Origin: Acidobacteriota bacterium
GTDB lineage: Bacteria > Acidobacteriota > Thermoanaerobaculia > UBA5066
DNA length: 37,098 nucleotides
Direction: 5' to 3'
Assembly (NCBI GenBank): GCA_029567505.1
Contig: JAKPXO010000030.1
Coordinates: 1-37,098 of the forward strand
Shown: positions 3,467 through 20,253 of the stretch, piece after piece
How positions within the stretch are numbered: the first letter of the stretch is position 1
How the letters are laid out: each line of letters begins with the position of its first letter
The notes under the pieces: model-generated
What the model was told of the DNA's origin: nothing
Database searches by the model: none
The model's input: only the letters and a program-made list of their open reading frames with translations
Made by a program: the position numbers and the translations under genes

Positions 3467-3701
3467 ACCCCTCCGGATTCGCGGTTCCTTCCGACCGTCT
3501 CGACCCACCACCGGCCGAGGCCCGCGAAGCTCGAGCGCCGACGCGCGATTGCTGCGTCGCGGTATATCCTCGTGCACCGGAACGGGAGATCGCCAGGTCG
3601 GTCTGCGGGTCTTCCTCTCCCGAAGGGTCGGGCCGGCACGAGCGGCAGTCCGGCCGGCGGGCGAGCGACCTGGCGGACCCGTCCGGAAAGACGGTGCAGA
3701 G
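3467..3701 (+). other. Intergenic stretch between the two propeller genes
   Basis: I see no convincing gene in these 235 bases. The downstream frame stays open upstream of 3702, but that extension is Arg/Gly-rich and would bury the signal peptide. A six-base-pair stem at 3539-3544/3554-3559 and an AT-richer TATATCC at 3563 could belong to a promoter, but no correctly spaced -35 is present. Confidence 0.4.
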
Positions 3702-5444
3702 ATGATGCCTCGTCGAGTGTTCCTCGCCTTCTCGCTGCTGGCCGCGCATCTGGTCCTCGCCGACGCCGCGGCGGCGTCCGGGCACGTCTACAGCCGCCGC
3801 TTCGGCAGCGGCTCCGACCAGGCGATCACGGCCGTGGCCGTCGACGGCGGCGGGAACGCGATCGTCGCCGGACTGTTCGCGGGCTCCATCGATTTCGGCG
3901 GCGGCTCGCTGACGAGCGCGGGGGGCGACGACGCCTTCGTCGCGAAGCTCGGCCCGAACGGGAATCATCTCTGGAGCCGCCGGTTCGGGGACGCCAGCGC
4001 CCAGAGCGCGACCGGCGTCGCCGTCGACGCGATCGGAAACGTCCTGGTGACCGGGTACTTCAGCGGCACGATCGACATCGGAGGCGCGACGCTCACGAGC
4101 GCGGGCGGGCAGGACGTCTTCGTCGCGATGTTCGACTCGAACGGGAACCACGTCTGGAGCAAGTGTTTCGGGAACTCGAGCAACCAGGCGGGCGCGGGCG
4201 TCGCGGTCGACCCGTCGGGGAACGTCCTCCTGGTGGGGACGTTCTCCGGGTCGATCGATTTCGGGGGAGGGAACCTGACGAGCGCCGGCTCGACGGACGT
4301 CTTCATCGCGAGGCTCGATGCGAACGGGTTCCACTCCTGGAGCAAGCTCTTCGGTGACGCGAGCGCGCAGACGGGCGTCGCCGTCGCCGTCGACGGCGAC
4401 GGGAACGTCTTCGCGACGGGCGCCTTCTCCGGGACCGTGGATTTCGGCGGAGGGGGTCTGACGAGCGCCGGCTCGACGGACGCCTTCCTCGTAAAGCTCT
4501 CGGCGGAGGGAAACTACGTGTGGAGCAAGCGGTTCGGCGACGCCTCGGGCCAGACGGGACTCGCCCTGGCCGTCGACGCGTCCGGAGGCCCGATCCTCGC
4601 AGGTTCGTTCAGCGGGTCGGTGAACTTCGGGGGCGGGGCACTCGCGAGCGCGGGATCGACCGACGGGTTCGTCGCGAAGCTCGATTCCTCCGGGAGCCAT
4701 CTCTGGTCCCGCGCCCTCGGCGGCACCGGCACCGATTCCGCCAACGGCGTCGCCGTGCACGGGGCAGGAGACGTCGTCGTCGCCGGTGGGTTCCAGGCGA
4801 GCGCGGACCTCGGCGGGGGAACGCTCACGAGCGCGGGCGGTACGGATCTCTTCTTGGCCCGCTACACCGCAGGCGGGAGCTGGCTCACGAACGCGCAGGC
4901 CGGCGACGCCGCCGAGCAGGAGTGCCGGGCGGTCGCCGTCGACGCTTCGGGCTTCGCGATTCCCGCGGGCCGCTTCCAGGGCAGCATCGACCTCGGCGGC
5001 GGAACGCTCCTGAGCGAGGGCGGTCACGATGCCTTCGCCGCCAAGCTCGGCGTCGGGACGACGCTCCACACGCTGGCGCCCTGCCGCCTCGTCGACACGC
5101 GCAACGCCGCCGGGGCCCTGGGAGGGCCGGCTCTCGAGCCCGGCCCTTCGCGACGGGTCTTTCCCGTCGCCGGTGTCTGCGGCATCCCGGCGACCGCGCG
5201 CTCGATCTCCGTCAACGTCACCGTGACTCAGCCCGCGGCCGCGGGAACGCTTCGGGTCTTCCCCGGCGACACGGCGGAAGAGTGGACCCCCACCTCGACC
5301 TCGATCTCGTTCAGCGCCCAGAAGACCCGCGCGAACAACTCCATCTGCCTTCTCTCGAAGGACGGGGCCGGCAGCCTGGCGGTGAGGAACGACGCGCCGG
5401 GGACGGTCCACTTCATCCTCGACGTGAGCGGCTACTTCGACTGA
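3702..5444 (+). CDS. Secreted seven-bladed SBBP propeller protein with a C-terminal DTR/GYF domain
   Basis: I place the start at ATG 3702 (or the adjacent ATG 3705) because the signal peptide begins there (M-P-R-R-V-F-L-A-F-S-L-L-A-A-H, cleavage near A-A-A-A-S-G). This gives 580 residues. Seven consecutive repeats of about 59 residues follow, each with F-G-x-x-S-x-Q, V-A-V-D-x-x-G-N, G-x-F-x-G-[ST]-[IV]-D-[FI]-G-G, T-S-A-G-x-x-D-x-F and W-S-[RK]. This is the SBBP beta-propeller type and the right number for a closed seven-bladed disc. The last 120 or so residues are a separate domain opening with A-P-C-R-L-V-D-T-R and closing with D-V-S-G-Y-F-D. I recognise that pattern from C-terminal domains of secreted proteins in Acidobacteriota and Actinobacteria, but its function is unknown. 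Surface binding is likely. Confidence 0.85.
   Translation: MMPRRVFLAFSLLAAHLVLADAAAASGHVYSRRFGSGSDQAITAVAVDGGGNAIVAGLFAGSIDFGGGSLTSAGGDDAFVAKLGPNGNHLWSRRFGDASAQSATGVAVDAIGNVLVTGYFSGTIDIGGATLTSAGGQDVFVAMFDSNGNHVWSKCFGNSSNQAGAGVAVDPSGNVLLVGTFSGSIDFGGGNLTSAGSTDVFIARLDANGFHSWSKLFGDASAQTGVAVAVDGDGNVFATGAFSGTVDFGGGGLTSAGSTDAFLVKLSAEGNYVWSKRFGDASGQTGLALAVDASGGPILAGSFSGSVNFGGGALASAGSTDGFVAKLDSSGSHLWSRALGGTGTDSANGVAVHGAGDVVVAGGFQASADLGGGTLTSAGGTDLFLARYTAGGSWLTNAQAGDAAEQECRAVAVDASGFAIPAGRFQGSIDLGGGTLLSEGGHDAFAAKLGVGTTLHTLAPCRLVDTRNAAGALGGPALEPGPSRRVFPVAGVCGIPATARSISVNVTVTQPAAAGTLRVFPGDTAEEWTPTSTSISFSAQKTRANNSICLLSKDGAGSLAVRNDAPGTVHFILDVSGYFD
3795..5051 (+). repeat. Seven in-frame tandem repeats, about 177 bp each
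   Basis: The repeats are the blades of the propeller encoded at 3702-5444. Units 2 to 5 are the most alike (F-G-D-A-S-x-Q starts and T-S-A-G-S-T-D cores). Units 6 and 7 are more divergent (A-L-G-G-T-G and A-Q-A-G-D starts). The similarity suggests internal duplication at the blade level. Confidence 0.75.
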
Positions 5445-15751: not shown

Positions 15752-17110
15752 TCAGCCGGGAGCGTCGTGCTTCGGGAAGGTCGCCACGGCGCGGGTCGGC
15801 CCGCCAGACGGGGAGGCGAGGGTCAGCTCGCCGCCGTGCGCGTGGACGATTCGCTCCGCGATCGGGAGCCCCATGCCGGTTCCGGCCGGCTTCGTCGAGA
15901 CGAAGACGCGGAAGACGTCGCCGCTCCCCCCACCGTCGATGCCGGGGCCGTGGTCCGCGACCGTGAGACGCCAGAAGCGTCCGCCGTCCTCGACCGCCAC
16001 GTCGACCTCGCGCGCCCTCGCCCCGACGGCCTCCACGGCGTCGAGCGCGTTCCCGACGAGGTTCAGGACGACCTGCTTGACCCGCGCCGTGTCGAGGAGC
16101 GCGGGGGCGCCGCCCGGCCACGGCCGGAACGTGAGGGCGATGCGCCGCGTCCGAGCCTCGGGCCCCAGGAACGCGACCGCTTCCGCCGCCGGCTCGTTCA
16201 GGTCGGACGGCACCGTGACGAGCGGCGAGGGGCGGGCATAAGAGAGGAAGTCGGAGAGGAGTCGCGCGAGGCGCCCGGTCTCCACCCGCGTGGCGGACGC
16301 GAGCTCGGCGGTGGAGAGGCCCGAGGAGCCCTTCTCGAGCTGCTCCTCGAGGAGCTCGAGGTTGAGGCTCATGGCGTTCAGGGGGTTGCGGATCTCGTGG
16401 GCCAGGCCGGTCGCCATCTCCCCCAGCTCGGCCCGCCGCTCCGCCTCGATGCGCGCCGCCTCGACGAGGCGCGTCCGACGGACGAGGAGCATCAGCGCCC
16501 AGGCGGCGGCGAGGATGCCGAGGAAGGAGACGAGCGCCGCGGCGAAGATCCGCTTGTAGAGCTTCACCCGGAGGACCTCGACGCGCGCCTCGAGCTCCCG
16601 CTGCGAGACGCCGACCTTCAGCGTGCCGAAGTCGCCGATAGGGACCTCGATGCCGTAGGGGTCGGCGATCTGGGCGGTCGTCTCGGTGGAGCGCGAGGCG
16701 GGCTCGAGCGGGCTCGTCGAGATCGTCTGGCCCGCCTCCGGGTGCGCGCCGGCGCGCTCGGGCCGCGAGAGGACGCCGGAGTAGGCGTAGACGAGCTGGT
16801 TTCTCGAGTCGTAGACGCGGACCTCGGAGAGGATGCGGCGCTCCGCGAGGGCCGAGCCGACGAAGACGTCGAGGTCCTCCTGGTTGACCTTCAGCGTGTA
16901 GAGATCGCCGGAAGCCCGCTCGGCGAGGCCGCGGGCGATCCGCTGGGCGTCCTGTCGCGAGTAGAGGAGCGCCTCGTCGACGACGTCCTTCGAGAGCGTC
17001 TTGAAGAGGAGGTGCCCGAAGAGGAAGACCGACCCGGCGGTCAGGAGGCCGACGAGCGACAGGACGGCGGTGAGGTTCCGGCGGAAGCGGCGCGCCTCGG
17101 GATCGGACAC
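15752..17110 (-). CDS. Membrane sensor histidine kinase
   Basis: I start at GTG 17110, giving 452 residues. Transmembrane helix 1 is about residues 13-36, an extracytoplasmic sensor domain about 37-185 (no recognised fold), and helix 2 about 187-210. The HisKA box has H238 in G-L-A-H-E-I-R-N-P-L. The ATPase part shows the N box (V-V-L-N-L-V-G-N-A-L-D-A-V), G1 (D-H-G-P-G-I-D) and G2 (G-T-G-M-G-L-P-I-A). All residues for autophosphorylation look intact. No receiver-domain response regulator is encoded next to it. It is divergent from exosortase H with only 43 bases between starts. A link to the AAA+ regulator at 18325-20253 would echo the PrsK/PrsR pair of other exosortase systems, but that regulator has no receiver domain. 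Confidence 0.9.
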   Translation of the reverse strand: MSDPEARRFRRNLTAVLSLVGLLTAGSVFLFGHLLFKTLSKDVVDEALLYSRQDAQRIARGLAERASGDLYTLKVNQEDLDVFVGSALAERRILSEVRVYDSRNQLVYAYSGVLSRPERAGAHPEAGQTISTSPLEPASRSTETTAQIADPYGIEVPIGDFGTLKVGVSQRELEARVEVLRVKLYKRIFAAALVSFLGILAAAWALMLLVRRTRLVEAARIEAERRAELGEMATGLAHEIRNPLNAMSLNLELLEEQLEKGSSGLSTAELASATRVETGRLARLLSDFLSYARPSPLVTVPSDLNEPAAEAVAFLGPEARTRRIALTFRPWPGGAPALLDTARVKQVVLNLVGNALDAVEAVGARAREVDVAVEDGGRFWRLTVADHGPGIDGGGSGDVFRVFVSTKPAGTGMGLPIAERIVHAHGGELTLASPSGGPTRAVATFPKHDAPG

Positions 17111-17153
17111 GGTCCCGAGTTTACGTGCGCGTACGCTATCCTCCCGCCTCGCC
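17111..17153. promoter_or_regulatory. 43-bp divergent promoter region, kinase/exosortase H
   Basis: Both start codons are GTG. The interval holds TATCCT at 17137-17142, eleven bases before the exosortase start, and a perfect 8-bp palindrome GCGTACGC at 17130-17137. Any promoter elements for the two genes must overlap here or lie in the neighbouring coding sequence. Confidence 0.35.
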
Positions 17154-17702
17154 GTGAAGAGCCCCGAACCGACAGAGCCCCCCCCGGCCGGACGGAAGCG
17201 CCTTCGGCCCGAGCTGGCCTTCCTCCTGAAGTTCGTCCTCCTCCTCGTCCTCTTCTTCGCCGTTACCGCGCCGAAGCCGATGAACGACGCGTTCGTGGAG
17301 CCGTTCACGGCGGGCGTCGCGAAGGTGGGAGGTTTCGCGGCCGGCCTCTTCGGCGAGAAGACGACGATGGTCGGAACGGCCATCATCTCTCCGCGATTCG
17401 CCGTGAACGTCCGGACGGGGTGCAACGGCCTCGAGACGATCTACATCTTCTTCGCCGGCGTCCTCGCGTTCCCCGCCCCGTGGGGCCGCAAGCTCCTGGG
17501 CCTCGTCGGCGGCTTCCTCGCCATTCAGCTGCTGAACGTCGTGAGGATCGTCAGCCTCTTCTACATCGGGGTCTACTTCCCGAAGCACTTCGAGGACTCC
17601 CACATCGTCGTCTGGCAGGCGATCGTGATCCTCTTCGGGGTCGCGCTCTTCCTCCTCTGGGCGGACCGGTATGCACGACCGAATCGACCCGCGGCTCCGT
17701 AG
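17154..17702 (+). CDS. xrtH: Exosortase H (XrtH-type)
   Basis: The 182-residue membrane protein has the exosortase catalytic triad: Cys90 in T-G-C-N-G-L-E, Arg131 in N-V-V-R-I-V-S-L-F-Y and His150 in F-E-D-S-H-I-V-V-W-Q. Hydrophobic helices lie about residues 22-40, 93-108, 115-140 and 153-172. Length and motif spacing fit the short exosortase H family, which processes proteins with an IPTLxxWG-CTERM sorting tail at the membrane. The GTG start at 17154 is chosen because the upstream in-frame sequence is Arg-rich and overlaps the kinase gene. The next gene begins inside this one and is the usual XrtH partner. None of the secreted proteins in this window has such a tail, so substrates must lie elsewhere. 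Confidence 0.88.
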   Translation: MKSPEPTEPPPAGRKRLRPELAFLLKFVLLLVLFFAVTAPKPMNDAFVEPFTAGVAKVGGFAAGLFGEKTTMVGTAIISPRFAVNVRTGCNGLETIYIFFAGVLAFPAPWGRKLLGLVGGFLAIQLLNVVRIVSLFYIGVYFPKHFEDSHIVVWQAIVILFGVALFLLWADRYARPNRPAAP

Positions 17703-18288
17703 GCTGCTCACCAGGCTCCCGCTCGCTGCGGGGCTCGCGATCCTCCTCTGGTTCGCGCTCGTCGGCCGCCCCTGGGGCGCGCTCGTCACGCGGGCGTCCG
17801 AGGGGTGGATCCGCGCCGCGGAGAGGACGAAGGTGACCCGCCTCGCGTTCGAGGACGGCATGGTCGTCGTGCAGAGGGCCGACCTCTCCTCCCGGTCCGA
17901 GACGCCGGCCTTCTCGGCCGCGCCGATGACGGCGAACCTCGTCCTCCTGCTCGCGCTCGTCTTCGCCACACCGCGCGACCTGCGCGCGAGCGCGTACGCG
18001 GCCCGGGTCGCCGCCGCCTTCGCCGCGCTCCTCCTGACCCAGGTGCTGCACCTCTCCTTCGCCGTCCAGACGCTCTACGCGACGCAGCTCGGCGCCTGGA
18101 GCGTCGCGACGTGGCCGCGCTGGCAGAGGGAGGTGGTCGCGACGGGACGCTACTTCTTCGACATCGTCGGGAAGTTCGCGGTGCCGTTCGTCTTCTGGGC
18201 GCTGACGCTCCGGATCGGCGAGGACGCGGAGGCCGGAAAGGGAAACGCCGCCTCCGGGAAGAGGCGGCGTTCGAAGGGGAAGGGCTGA
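17671..18288 (+). CDS. Exosortase H-associated membrane protein
   Basis: The 205-residue product starts at ATG 17671, 32 bases inside the exosortase gene. It has a membrane helix about residues 17-33, an exported stretch with R-A-A-E-R-T-K-V-T-R, then three more helices (about 86-97, 107-128 and 165-182). The tail is highly basic (G-K-R-R-R-S-K-G-K-G). Position, size and topology match the membrane protein that regularly follows xrtH in IPTL-CTERM systems; its role is unknown. The last codons are written over a strong hairpin that probably ends transcription of the convergent regulator gene, which may explain the low-complexity basic tail. Confidence 0.78.
   Translation: MHDRIDPRLRRLLTRLPLAAGLAILLWFALVGRPWGALVTRASEGWIRAAERTKVTRLAFEDGMVVVQRADLSSRSETPAFSAAPMTANLVLLLALVFATPRDLRASAYAARVAAAFAALLLTQVLHLSFAVQTLYATQLGAWSVATWPRWQREVVATGRYFFDIVGKFAVPFVFWALTLRIGEDAEAGKGNAASGKRRRSKGKG
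18244..18271 (-). terminator. Intrinsic terminator inside the 3' end of the XrtH-associated gene
   Basis: An 11-base-pair perfect stem (18244-18254 with 18261-18271) has a six-base loop. On the minus strand it is followed by TCCCTTTCC, a T-rich tail, and it lies 54 bases past the stop of the regulator gene at 18325. On the plus strand no T-tract follows. It therefore fits a terminator for the minus-strand gene located within plus-strand coding sequence. Confidence 0.6.
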
Positions 18289-18324: not shown

Positions 18325-20253
18325 TTAGTCCTGCCGCTTGAGGTACCGGAAGTCCTTGATGTCGTACTCCTTCATCTTGGCGATGAGGGAGCCGCGGGAG
18401 ATGTTGAGGAGCCGGGCTCCGAGCGACTGGTTGCCGCGCACCTTGCGCATGACGCGCTCGATGACCTGGCGCTCGACCTTCTCGACGATCTCCTTGAGGT
18501 CGTCGCTCTCGGCGAGCGTCAGCTCGACGTGCTCGTCGCCGAACTTGGCGTCGAGGTCGGAGAGGCGGACGGGGCCCGTGCCGAGCTGGGCCGCGAGGCG
18601 CCGGACCTCGTTCTCGACCTCGCGGACGTTCCCCGCGTAGTTGAAGTCGAGGAGAGCGTTCATCGCCTCGACGTCGTAGGCCGCCGCGGGCGGTCCACCG
18701 TGTCGCGCGGCGAAGGCGTCGAGGAGCGCCGGGATGTCCTCCTTGCGATCGCGGAGCGTCGGGAGGCGGAGCGTGAGGGCGGAGAGACGGTAGTAGAGGT
18801 CGTCCCGGAAGGTCCCCTCCTCGACCGCCCGCGTGAGGGGCCGCGAGGAGGTGCCGATGACGCGGACGTCGACGGGGACGGACCGGCCGCCGGGCGCGAC
18901 GACCTCGCGCGCCTCGAGGAGACGGTAGAGGAGCGCCTGGGTCGGCGCGGGGAGCTCGCTCACCTCCTCGATGAGGAGGGTCCCGCCGTCGGCCTCGAAG
19001 AGGCGCCCCGGACGGCGGCGGCGGTCGGGCGGACCCGCGGTGCCGAGGAGGTCTTCCTCGAGAGCCGCCGCGGTGGAGGCGGTCGCGGAGATCCTCACGA
19101 GCGGGCGGGGACGCCGCGGCGAGAGCGCGTGGAGCGTCTCGGCGACGAGCGTCTTGCCGGTGCCGACGTCGCCGATCACGAGGACCGGCGCGCGGGCCGA
19201 GGCGATCCGCTGGAGGGAGACGCGCAGGTTCTGGATCGCCAGGGAGGAGCCGACCACGGCGGTGACGGGGTCCTCGAGCGGCGCGGTCACCATCGCCGCG
19301 GGGGCGTGGGCGCTGGTGCGCTCCCCGAACGGCGCATCGGCGCGCTCGGCGTGGACGAACCCGATCGCCGCGGCGAGAGCGACGCCGAGGTCGTTCAGAA
19401 GCGGGTCGGCGGCGAGCTCCATCGGCAGGACGAGGAGGCCCACCGCCTCGGCGCCCGGCCGCGTCACCGGGTAGACCCGGAGGCGCATGCCCGCTTCGAA
19501 GATGTCGGTCGGTCCGCCGGAGGCGAAGACCTCGTCGACCGAGCGGCGGCCTAGCCGCGGGAGCGTCCCCTTCCAGATCGCGGCGATCGCCTCTCCCGTC
19601 GAGCTGTCGGCCACGGAGAGGAACGCGACGCTGTGGACGGGCGTGGAGGAGGAGAGGTACGACGCGACTTCCTGGAGCCTCTCCTCCAGTGTGGCCGAGG
19701 CGCGGAGCCGACCGAACAGCTCCCCCCAGACGTCGGCCAGCCGGAAGCCTTGCGCCGCCGAGAGCGAGCTCGGACGGCTCTCCGCCGGCCGGGCCGCGTG
19801 GACCGGCTCGTACGTCCTCGGCCGCGGCTCGGGCACCCGCGGGGCCTGGGCCGCGGGCGGGGCCGGCGGGGGCGGCGGCGGCGCGAGCGCGGCCGCGGCG
19901 ACCGAGAAGGCGTCCCTCCCGCGCGGCGGCGGCGCCGCGAGACGGTTCGGGTTCGGGGCAGGACCGTTCAGCAGAGTGATCGTCGCCTCGCCAATCTGGA
20001 TACGGTCGCCCGCCGCGAGTGCAGCGGACTTGACGATCGCTCCGTTCAGGTACACGTCCGAGCCGGGCGCCGTCCCGAGGACGTCCAGGCGGAGCTCCTC
20101 TCCCGCGACGGAGATGCGGGCGTGCCGGCCGAGGACACCTCGTGCCCTCACGACCAGATCGTTCCCGGACGAAGCGCCGAGATGGATCACGTCGCGGTGA
20201 ACCTTGCGGATCTCCGACTCGCCACCCGGCTTGCGGACCTCGAAGCTGAGCAT
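18325..20253 (-). CDS. FHA-GAF-like-AAA+-Fis HTH regulator lacking GAFTGA
   Basis: The start is ATG 20253 with GGAGG ten bases upstream, giving 642 residues. Domains: FHA about 20-95 (G-R-H-A-R-I-S, phosphothreonine recognition), a Pro/Ala linker 100-165, a GAF-like segment about 180-300, a sigma-54-activator-type AAA+ domain about 330-560, and a Fis-type HTH from about 590 (N-Q-S-L-G-A-R-L-L-N-I-S-R-G-S-L). Walker A is G-D-V-G-T-G-K-T at 361-368 and Walker B L-L-I-E-E at 426-430. Where activators carry GAFTGA, this protein reads G-T-A-G-P-P-D (404-410). That loop contacts sigma-54, so classic activation is doubtful. A Ser/Thr kinase probably provides the FHA input. It is convergent with the XrtH pair and divergent from a LuxR regulator. 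Confidence 0.88.
   Translation of the reverse strand: MLSFEVRKPGGESEIRKVHRDVIHLGASSGNDLVVRARGVLGRHARISVAGEELRLDVLGTAPGSDVYLNGAIVKSAALAAGDRIQIGEATITLLNGPAPNPNRLAAPPPRGRDAFSVAAAALAPPPPPPAPPAAQAPRVPEPRPRTYEPVHAARPAESRPSSLSAAQGFRLADVWGELFGRLRASATLEERLQEVASYLSSSTPVHSVAFLSVADSSTGEAIAAIWKGTLPRLGRRSVDEVFASGGPTDIFEAGMRLRVYPVTRPGAEAVGLLVLPMELAADPLLNDLGVALAAAIGFVHAERADAPFGERTSAHAPAAMVTAPLEDPVTAVVGSSLAIQNLRVSLQRIASARAPVLVIGDVGTGKTLVAETLHALSPRRPRPLVRISATASTAAALEEDLLGTAGPPDRRRRPGRLFEADGGTLLIEEVSELPAPTQALLYRLLEAREVVAPGGRSVPVDVRVIGTSSRPLTRAVEEGTFRDDLYYRLSALTLRLPTLRDRKEDIPALLDAFAARHGGPPAAAYDVEAMNALLDFNYAGNVREVENEVRRLAAQLGTGPVRLSDLDAKFGDEHVELTLAESDDLKEIVEKVERQVIERVMRKVRGNQSLGARLLNISRGSLIAKMKEYDIKDFRYLKRQD

Follow-up and report, generated by a model that had tools for sequence, protein, structure and literature searches.

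A probable former sigma-54 activator with a degenerate AAA+ domain in one class of Acidobacteriota

The gene at positions 18325 to 20253 of the 37,098-nucleotide stretch of DNA analysed here (the window) probably encodes a class-restricted, single-copy DNA-binding regulator of the Fis type, which descended from a sigma-54 activator and no longer activates sigma-54. GAFTGA, the loop motif, is intact in no orthologue, and one family of orthologues has no AAA+ domain. The suggestion in the initial annotation that the protein no longer works through sigma-54 is, therefore, well supported. GAFTGA-less paralogues of activators have been known singly. Here, near-intact, pseudo-enzymatic and AAA+-deleted forms occur within one orthologous single-copy lineage, and this family-level decay series is the new part. 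The family lets one test what the AAA+ domain contributes to transcription control after a regulator has left sigma-54. It also carries a warning for annotation, as the protein scores far above the Sigma54_activat (PF00158) cut-off, with 118.8 bits against 20.2, and would be annotated both as a sigma-54 activator and as a reader of Ser/Thr kinase signals, while its residues support neither.

The regulator gene and its motifs

The gene is read on the minus strand, and a plus-strand reading of 18325-20253 runs into an internal stop. The open reading frame extends in frame upstream to 20622, and the orthologue alignments begin at the ATG at 20253. Its features are as follows.

18325 to 20253, minus strand: FHA / GAF-like / degenerate AAA+ / Fis-HTH regulator, 642 amino acids, ATG at 20253, stop codon 18325-18327 included
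19960 to 20253, minus strand: FHA domain, residues 1-98; Ala (GASS) in place of the phosphothreonine Arg, Leu in place of the SxxH Ser
19342 to 19740, minus strand: GAF-like middle domain, approximately residues 172-304, assigned from AlphaFold2 secondary structure only
18754 to 19257, minus strand: alpha/beta core of the AAA+ domain (Sigma54_activat), residues 333-500
19150 to 19173, minus strand: Walker A GDVGTGKT, intact, residues 361-368
19087 to 19089, minus strand: position of the E-switch Asn, here Ser389 (TLNCAA in ZraR, RISATA here)
19000 to 19050, minus strand: L1 loop LLGTAGPPDRRRRPGRL, residues 402-418, no GAFTGA, 3 residues shorter than in ZraR
18955 to 18987, minus strand: Walker B GGTLLIEEVSE, residues 423-433; E429 in place of Asp, with catalytic E430 retained
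18838 to 18861, minus strand: sensor I VIGTSSRP, residues 465-472; Ser470 in place of Asn (canonical AATN, GTSS here)
18784 to 18810, minus strand: arginine fingers FRDDLYYRL, intact, residues 482-490, with R483 and R489
18610 to 18633, minus strand: sensor II GNVREVEN, intact; GNVRE is 541-545, with R544
18328 to 18507, minus strand: Fis-type HTH, residues 583-642, the most conserved part of the family

Pfam found FHA (25-88), Sigma54_activat (334-495), AAA_lid_14 (501-575) and HTH_8 (590-630) in the protein, all above their gathering cut-offs. It gave no match to the middle region (about 172-304), where the predicted helices and strands resemble those of a GAF domain. None of the NCBIfam equivalogs, the TyrR model included, was reached at cut-off; with the PEP-CTERM/exosortase response regulator model TIGR02915, the protein scored 191 bits, below the cut-off of 502.6.

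The motif readings in the initial annotation held. Walker A, the arginine region and the Fis HTH are kept, with GDVGTGKT and FRDDLYYRL intact and HTH_8 above cut-off. Walker B has E-E (E429 and E430 in LLIEE) instead of D-E. GTAGPPD stands in place of GAFTGA at residues 404-410, which are exactly bases 19024-19044. In an alignment that includes ZraR and activators from the host genome, LLGTAGPPDRRRRPGRL of the window protein lies against LFGHEKGAFTGADKRREGRF, and LLIEE lies against LFLDE. Two further losses had not been listed before, the E-switch Asn (S389) and the sensor-I Asn (S470).

A structural model was made with AlphaFold2, superposed on FleQ and used in a Foldseek search. The pLDDT is near 90 over most of the AAA+ core but drops under 50 at L1 residues 409-412. 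The core superposes on FleQ with a TM score of 0.90 and an rmsd of 1.6 Å. No GAFTGA-like string occurs anywhere in the 642 residues, and neither the sequence alignment nor the confident core superposed on FleQ revealed a displaced one. L1 is, therefore, shortened rather than displaced.

The host is a metagenome-assembled genome of a Thermoanaerobaculia-type member of the Acidobacteriota, which encodes sigma-54 together with about 30 further sigma-54 activators. L1 matches G[AS][FY][TS]GA in 25 of the 27 other activators with a readable loop, the exceptions being L019 (GVATGV) and L020 (GAFTDA). The host and nearly the whole class still have sigma-54, with rpoN found in 115 of the 120 genomes of the class. 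We, therefore, rejected the explanation that the loop was lost because sigma-54 itself had been lost. The retention of sigma-54 also makes an indirect role at sigma-54 promoters conceivable. No -24/-12 sites were found in the window, in a scan of little power for which the chance expectation is also near zero.

Some other activators have unusual motifs as well. L019 (G000:C214:38043-38540) and L052 (G015:C34) form another activator lineage with a GVATGV loop and intact Walker A and Walker B. The activator L060 (G021:C58) has LFGYGPAQGGAAEPAGPGLF, with GAFTGA lost and Walker B intact, and joins L017 in the AAA+ tree. L020 (G000:C28) has the GAFTDA loop, and L025 (G000:C208) has a normal loop and LDR instead of LDE in Walker B.

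Distribution and decay of the AAA+ domain

The regulator is a single-copy gene restricted to one class of Acidobacteriota. An HTH profile was searched against 120 genomes of the class and 247 genomes across the phylum Acidobacteriota (E at most 1e-14). Exactly one copy per genome was found in 51 of the 120 class genomes, which belong to only five families, namely f1 (the family of the window), f2, f3, f6 and f11. The phylum-wide sample gave 8 positive genomes out of 247, all from these five families, and no regulator outside them. Some f11 genomes had no match to the profile (e.g., G045). When contigs were scanned with the window protein, all full-length relatives obtained were from Acidobacteriota. 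Orthologues were present in 13 of 13 other f1 genomes drawn (some split across contigs), whereas f2 orthologues are about 40% identical to the window protein. The orthologue L103 (G011:C118) in G011 gave matches in two reading frames, and an ambiguous base lies close to the break between them, which is probably an assembly gap.

The f1 orthologues, at 59-97% identity, all lack GAFTGA, so the loss is shared by relatives. L1 has a dN of 0 and a pS of about 0.5 between congeners. A sequencing error or chance was, therefore, rejected as the source of the altered loop, and a frameshift or pseudogene was ruled out by the orthologues and by dN/dS.

Orthologous proteins were taken from 47 loci, three of which are truncated at the N-terminus. 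An intact GAFTGA is absent from every orthologue that has an AAA+ domain. The f1 proteins have a near-intact P-loop, keep the Walker A Lys and sensor II, and read E-E in Walker B; their arginine fingers are kept, except in one member with Glu at the second finger. In f2, Walker B is LNE (Asp to Asn), and Walker A, the catalytic Glu, the arginine fingers and sensor II are kept. The Walker A Lys is replaced by Arg in 30 of the 31 f6 and f11 proteins, and all 31 lack the Walker B Asp, both arginine-finger Arg and the sensor II Arg. The f3 proteins (three genera, 350-373 amino acids) keep FHA, the middle region and HTH_8, and the AAA+ and lid domains are absent by Pfam. Three f11 proteins of genus g25 (L097, L139 and L140) have PTFTG[AST] at the loop position with their other AAA+ catalytic residues gone. 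This remnant shows descent from a GAFTGA loop, and it suggests that the loop was perhaps lost more than once. All five families have a degraded GAFTGA, which goes back either to a single event in their common ancestor or to several separate ones.

It is highly improbable, and already largely refuted, that the protein still works as a sigma-54 activator, its L1 loop being displaced or unusual. It is close to ZraR and FleQ in both sequence and fold, and the host has sigma-54, as such a reading would have it. However, the whole protein is free of a GAFTGA-like string, L1 is shortened and varies between genera, and the AAA+ domain is deleted in f3.

The midpoint-rooted protein tree mirrors the host families, with (f1,(f2,f3)) against (f6,f11) and support of 99 for f2 with f3 and 100 for the two halves. 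The lack of AAA+ in f3 is, therefore, most readily interpreted as a loss inside a clade whose relatives have the domain. Trees of the AAA+ domain only (support 0.89) and of the HTH only (1.0) both placed all sampled members together and apart from the sampled activators.

Selection, input and mechanism

Mean identity between the window protein and the f6 and f11 proteins is 58-63% in the HTH, 25-31% in AAA+, 31% in FHA and 17-19% in the middle domain. Four pairs of ordinary activators showed the reverse order, with AAA+ (58-75%) above HTH (44-62%). All domains are under purifying selection, including the pseudo-AAA+ (dN/dS mostly below 0.2). In f6 and f11, the pseudo-AAA+ has a dN/dS of about 0.07-0.15, and this dead domain is, thus, maintained, though not for ATPase work. 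Because the HTH is the most conserved domain and AAA+ decays by clade, the conserved function appears to be sigma-54-independent DNA binding, for which AAA+ chemistry is dispensable. DNA binding by the Fis HTH, coupled to an FHA/GAF-like input module, is conserved and, thus, presumably selected.

On our preferred reading, the Fis HTH would be the working part, bound to DNA at promoters that depend on sigma factors other than sigma-54. It may act as a repressor or an activator there, possibly at sigma-70-type promoters in parallel with GAFTGA-less proteins reported to act with sigma-70, and the FHA/GAF-like part would serve as an input or assembly module. In f1 and f2, AAA+ would be at most a nucleotide-binding aid to assembly, and in the sister families it would be a dead scaffold or is missing. 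Since the P-loop, arginine fingers and sensor II are kept, the AAA+ of the window protein probably binds nucleotide and helps form oligomers, and the Walker B Glu may coordinate magnesium. An efficient power stroke driven by hydrolysis is unlikely in this protein.

The initial annotation had also proposed an ATP-dependent regulator. This may stand for f1 and f2 only, as the other families have a pseudo-ATPase or no AAA+ domain. In the strongest form of this proposal, the window protein binds and hydrolyses ATP to control sigma-70 promoters, as has been proposed for Caulobacter NtrC. Walker A, catalytic Glu430, R483, R489 and R544 are all kept in f1 and f2, apart from the f1 member with the altered second finger. 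In the window AAA+, Walker A, the catalytic Glu, both arginine fingers and sensor II are kept under strong purifying selection, which one would not expect if nucleotide were wholly irrelevant in f1. Also, Caulobacter NtrC lacks GAFTGA, and the study describing it concludes that ATP must be bound and hydrolysed (PMC10274813). Still, the Walker B Asp has become Glu or Asn, the E-switch and sensor-I Asn are lost, and hydrolysis is impossible or very unlikely in f3, f6 and f11, where the HTH is nonetheless kept. We consider ATP-driven control possible but rather unlikely.

A dominant-negative subunit could enter ordinary sigma-54 activator hexamers through its arginine fingers, poison them and so repress sigma-54 output. 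The arginine fingers and AAA+ fold are kept in f1, and about 30 activators in the same cell would offer it partners. However, the interface residues or the whole domain are missing in f3, f6 and f11, and such a role cannot, therefore, be the conserved function. We regard it as very unlikely.

Returning to a Fis-type regulator that has left sigma-54, the families may form a series from a sigma-54 activator to an AAA+-free Fis-like regulator. The loop would have been degraded, the catalytic residues then lost, and the domain deleted in one family. The pseudo-ATPase kept by other families would have taken on a new role as a scaffold, for ligand binding or oligomerisation, that serves a conserved regulon specific to the class. 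We put this scenario forward tentatively, as a reasonable possibility that falls somewhat short of probable.

An FHA input had been taken to imply control by a Ser/Thr kinase. The phosphothreonine pocket of FHA domains is defined by the Arg of GR and the Ser of SxxH. Aligned with GarA, the window FHA has GA for the phosphothreonine-binding GR and Leu for the SxxH Ser. The phosphothreonine Arg is present in none of 44 FHA domains of the family (Ala or Ser is found there) and the SxxH Ser in only 2 of 44. Since the Arg is missing across the family and the Ser from nearly all members, Ser/Thr-kinase control is possible but unsupported. Myxococcus has FHA-type enhancer-binding proteins that combine FHA, a sigma-54 activator core and a Fis HTH, and they are sigma-54 activators with kinase input. 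Compared with these, the window protein has lost both the FHA Arg and the GAFTGA loop. We found no literature on FHA in combination with GAFTGA.

The top Foldseek match of the model was NtrX. NtrX and the GAFTGA-less NtrC of Caulobacter and Rhodobacter likewise have a sigma-54-activator fold without an intact GAFTGA. R. capsulatus NtrC acts with sigma-70, and so does Caulobacter NtrC by its authors' data (PMC10274813). These proteins carry a receiver domain and work with a partner kinase, whereas the window protein has FHA and GAF-like domains and no receiver. We found no literature report of AAA+ loss in the NtrX or GAFTGA-less NtrC families. TyrR, DhaR and HupR are GAFTGA-less and act with sigma-70 (PMC3162934), and VpsR is likewise sigma-70 dependent (PMC10274813). 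All four resemble the window protein as paralogues that were once sigma-54 activators and now have a broken GAFTGA, but they have other input domains and keep a full AAA+. HTH_8 is shared with Fis and other Fis-HTH proteins, and in f3 the regulator is itself a Fis-HTH protein with no ATPase. The family differs from Fis in carrying FHA and GAF-like domains and in deriving from an activator, not from Fis.

The exosortase H neighbourhood

Two convergent neighbours lie tail-to-tail with the regulator in the window, and they overlap each other.

17001 to 17702, plus strand: exosortase H (XrtH), TIGR04177 above cut-off
17671 to 18288, plus strand: exosortase H-associated membrane protein, NF041730

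This tail-to-tail arrangement is found in many f1, all f3 and most f6 genomes, and the regulator is only 28-31% identical between the window and f6. In f11, f2 and some f1 and f6 genomes, XrtH is elsewhere or was not found; G006, G016 and G051 have the regulator and gave no XrtH match. Of the genomes sampled, 47 of the 51 with the regulator and 40 of the 69 without it have XrtH, a contrast that is confounded by phylogeny. The idea of a regulator homologue beside every XrtH was rejected, as none was seen at 20 further XrtH loci, including those of families without the regulator. A histidine kinase (ZraS/AtoS-like) lies beyond the exosortase genes at 15752 to about 17040, on the minus strand like the regulator, and no response regulator was seen beside it. 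In f2 (L098), a histidine kinase is directly downstream of the regulator on the same strand, and the regulator is without a receiver domain.

The regulator might be dedicated to the adjoining exosortase H system, comparable to the PEP-CTERM/exosortase response regulator. This would be compatible with the preferred reading of a Fis-type regulator that has left sigma-54. The convergent gene pair adjoining the regulator across three families and the two placements of a histidine kinase point in this direction. However, the regulator is kept in genomes where XrtH is elsewhere (f11 and some f1 and f6) or was not found, many genomes have XrtH without the regulator, and convergent neighbours have no common promoter. 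A dedicated role is, thus, unlikely. We found no literature on exosortases in this class of Acidobacteriota.

Upstream of the regulator, an SMC gene is divergently oriented in f1, f2 and f3, with a LuxR-type gene in between in f1. Several f6 upstream regions contain candidate TTGACA-like boxes, as judged by eye only, and inspection of the upstream regions yielded no shared operator. Elsewhere in the window, positions 3549-5444 on the plus strand encode a beta-propeller (SBBP) repeat protein, which is possibly a surface protein.
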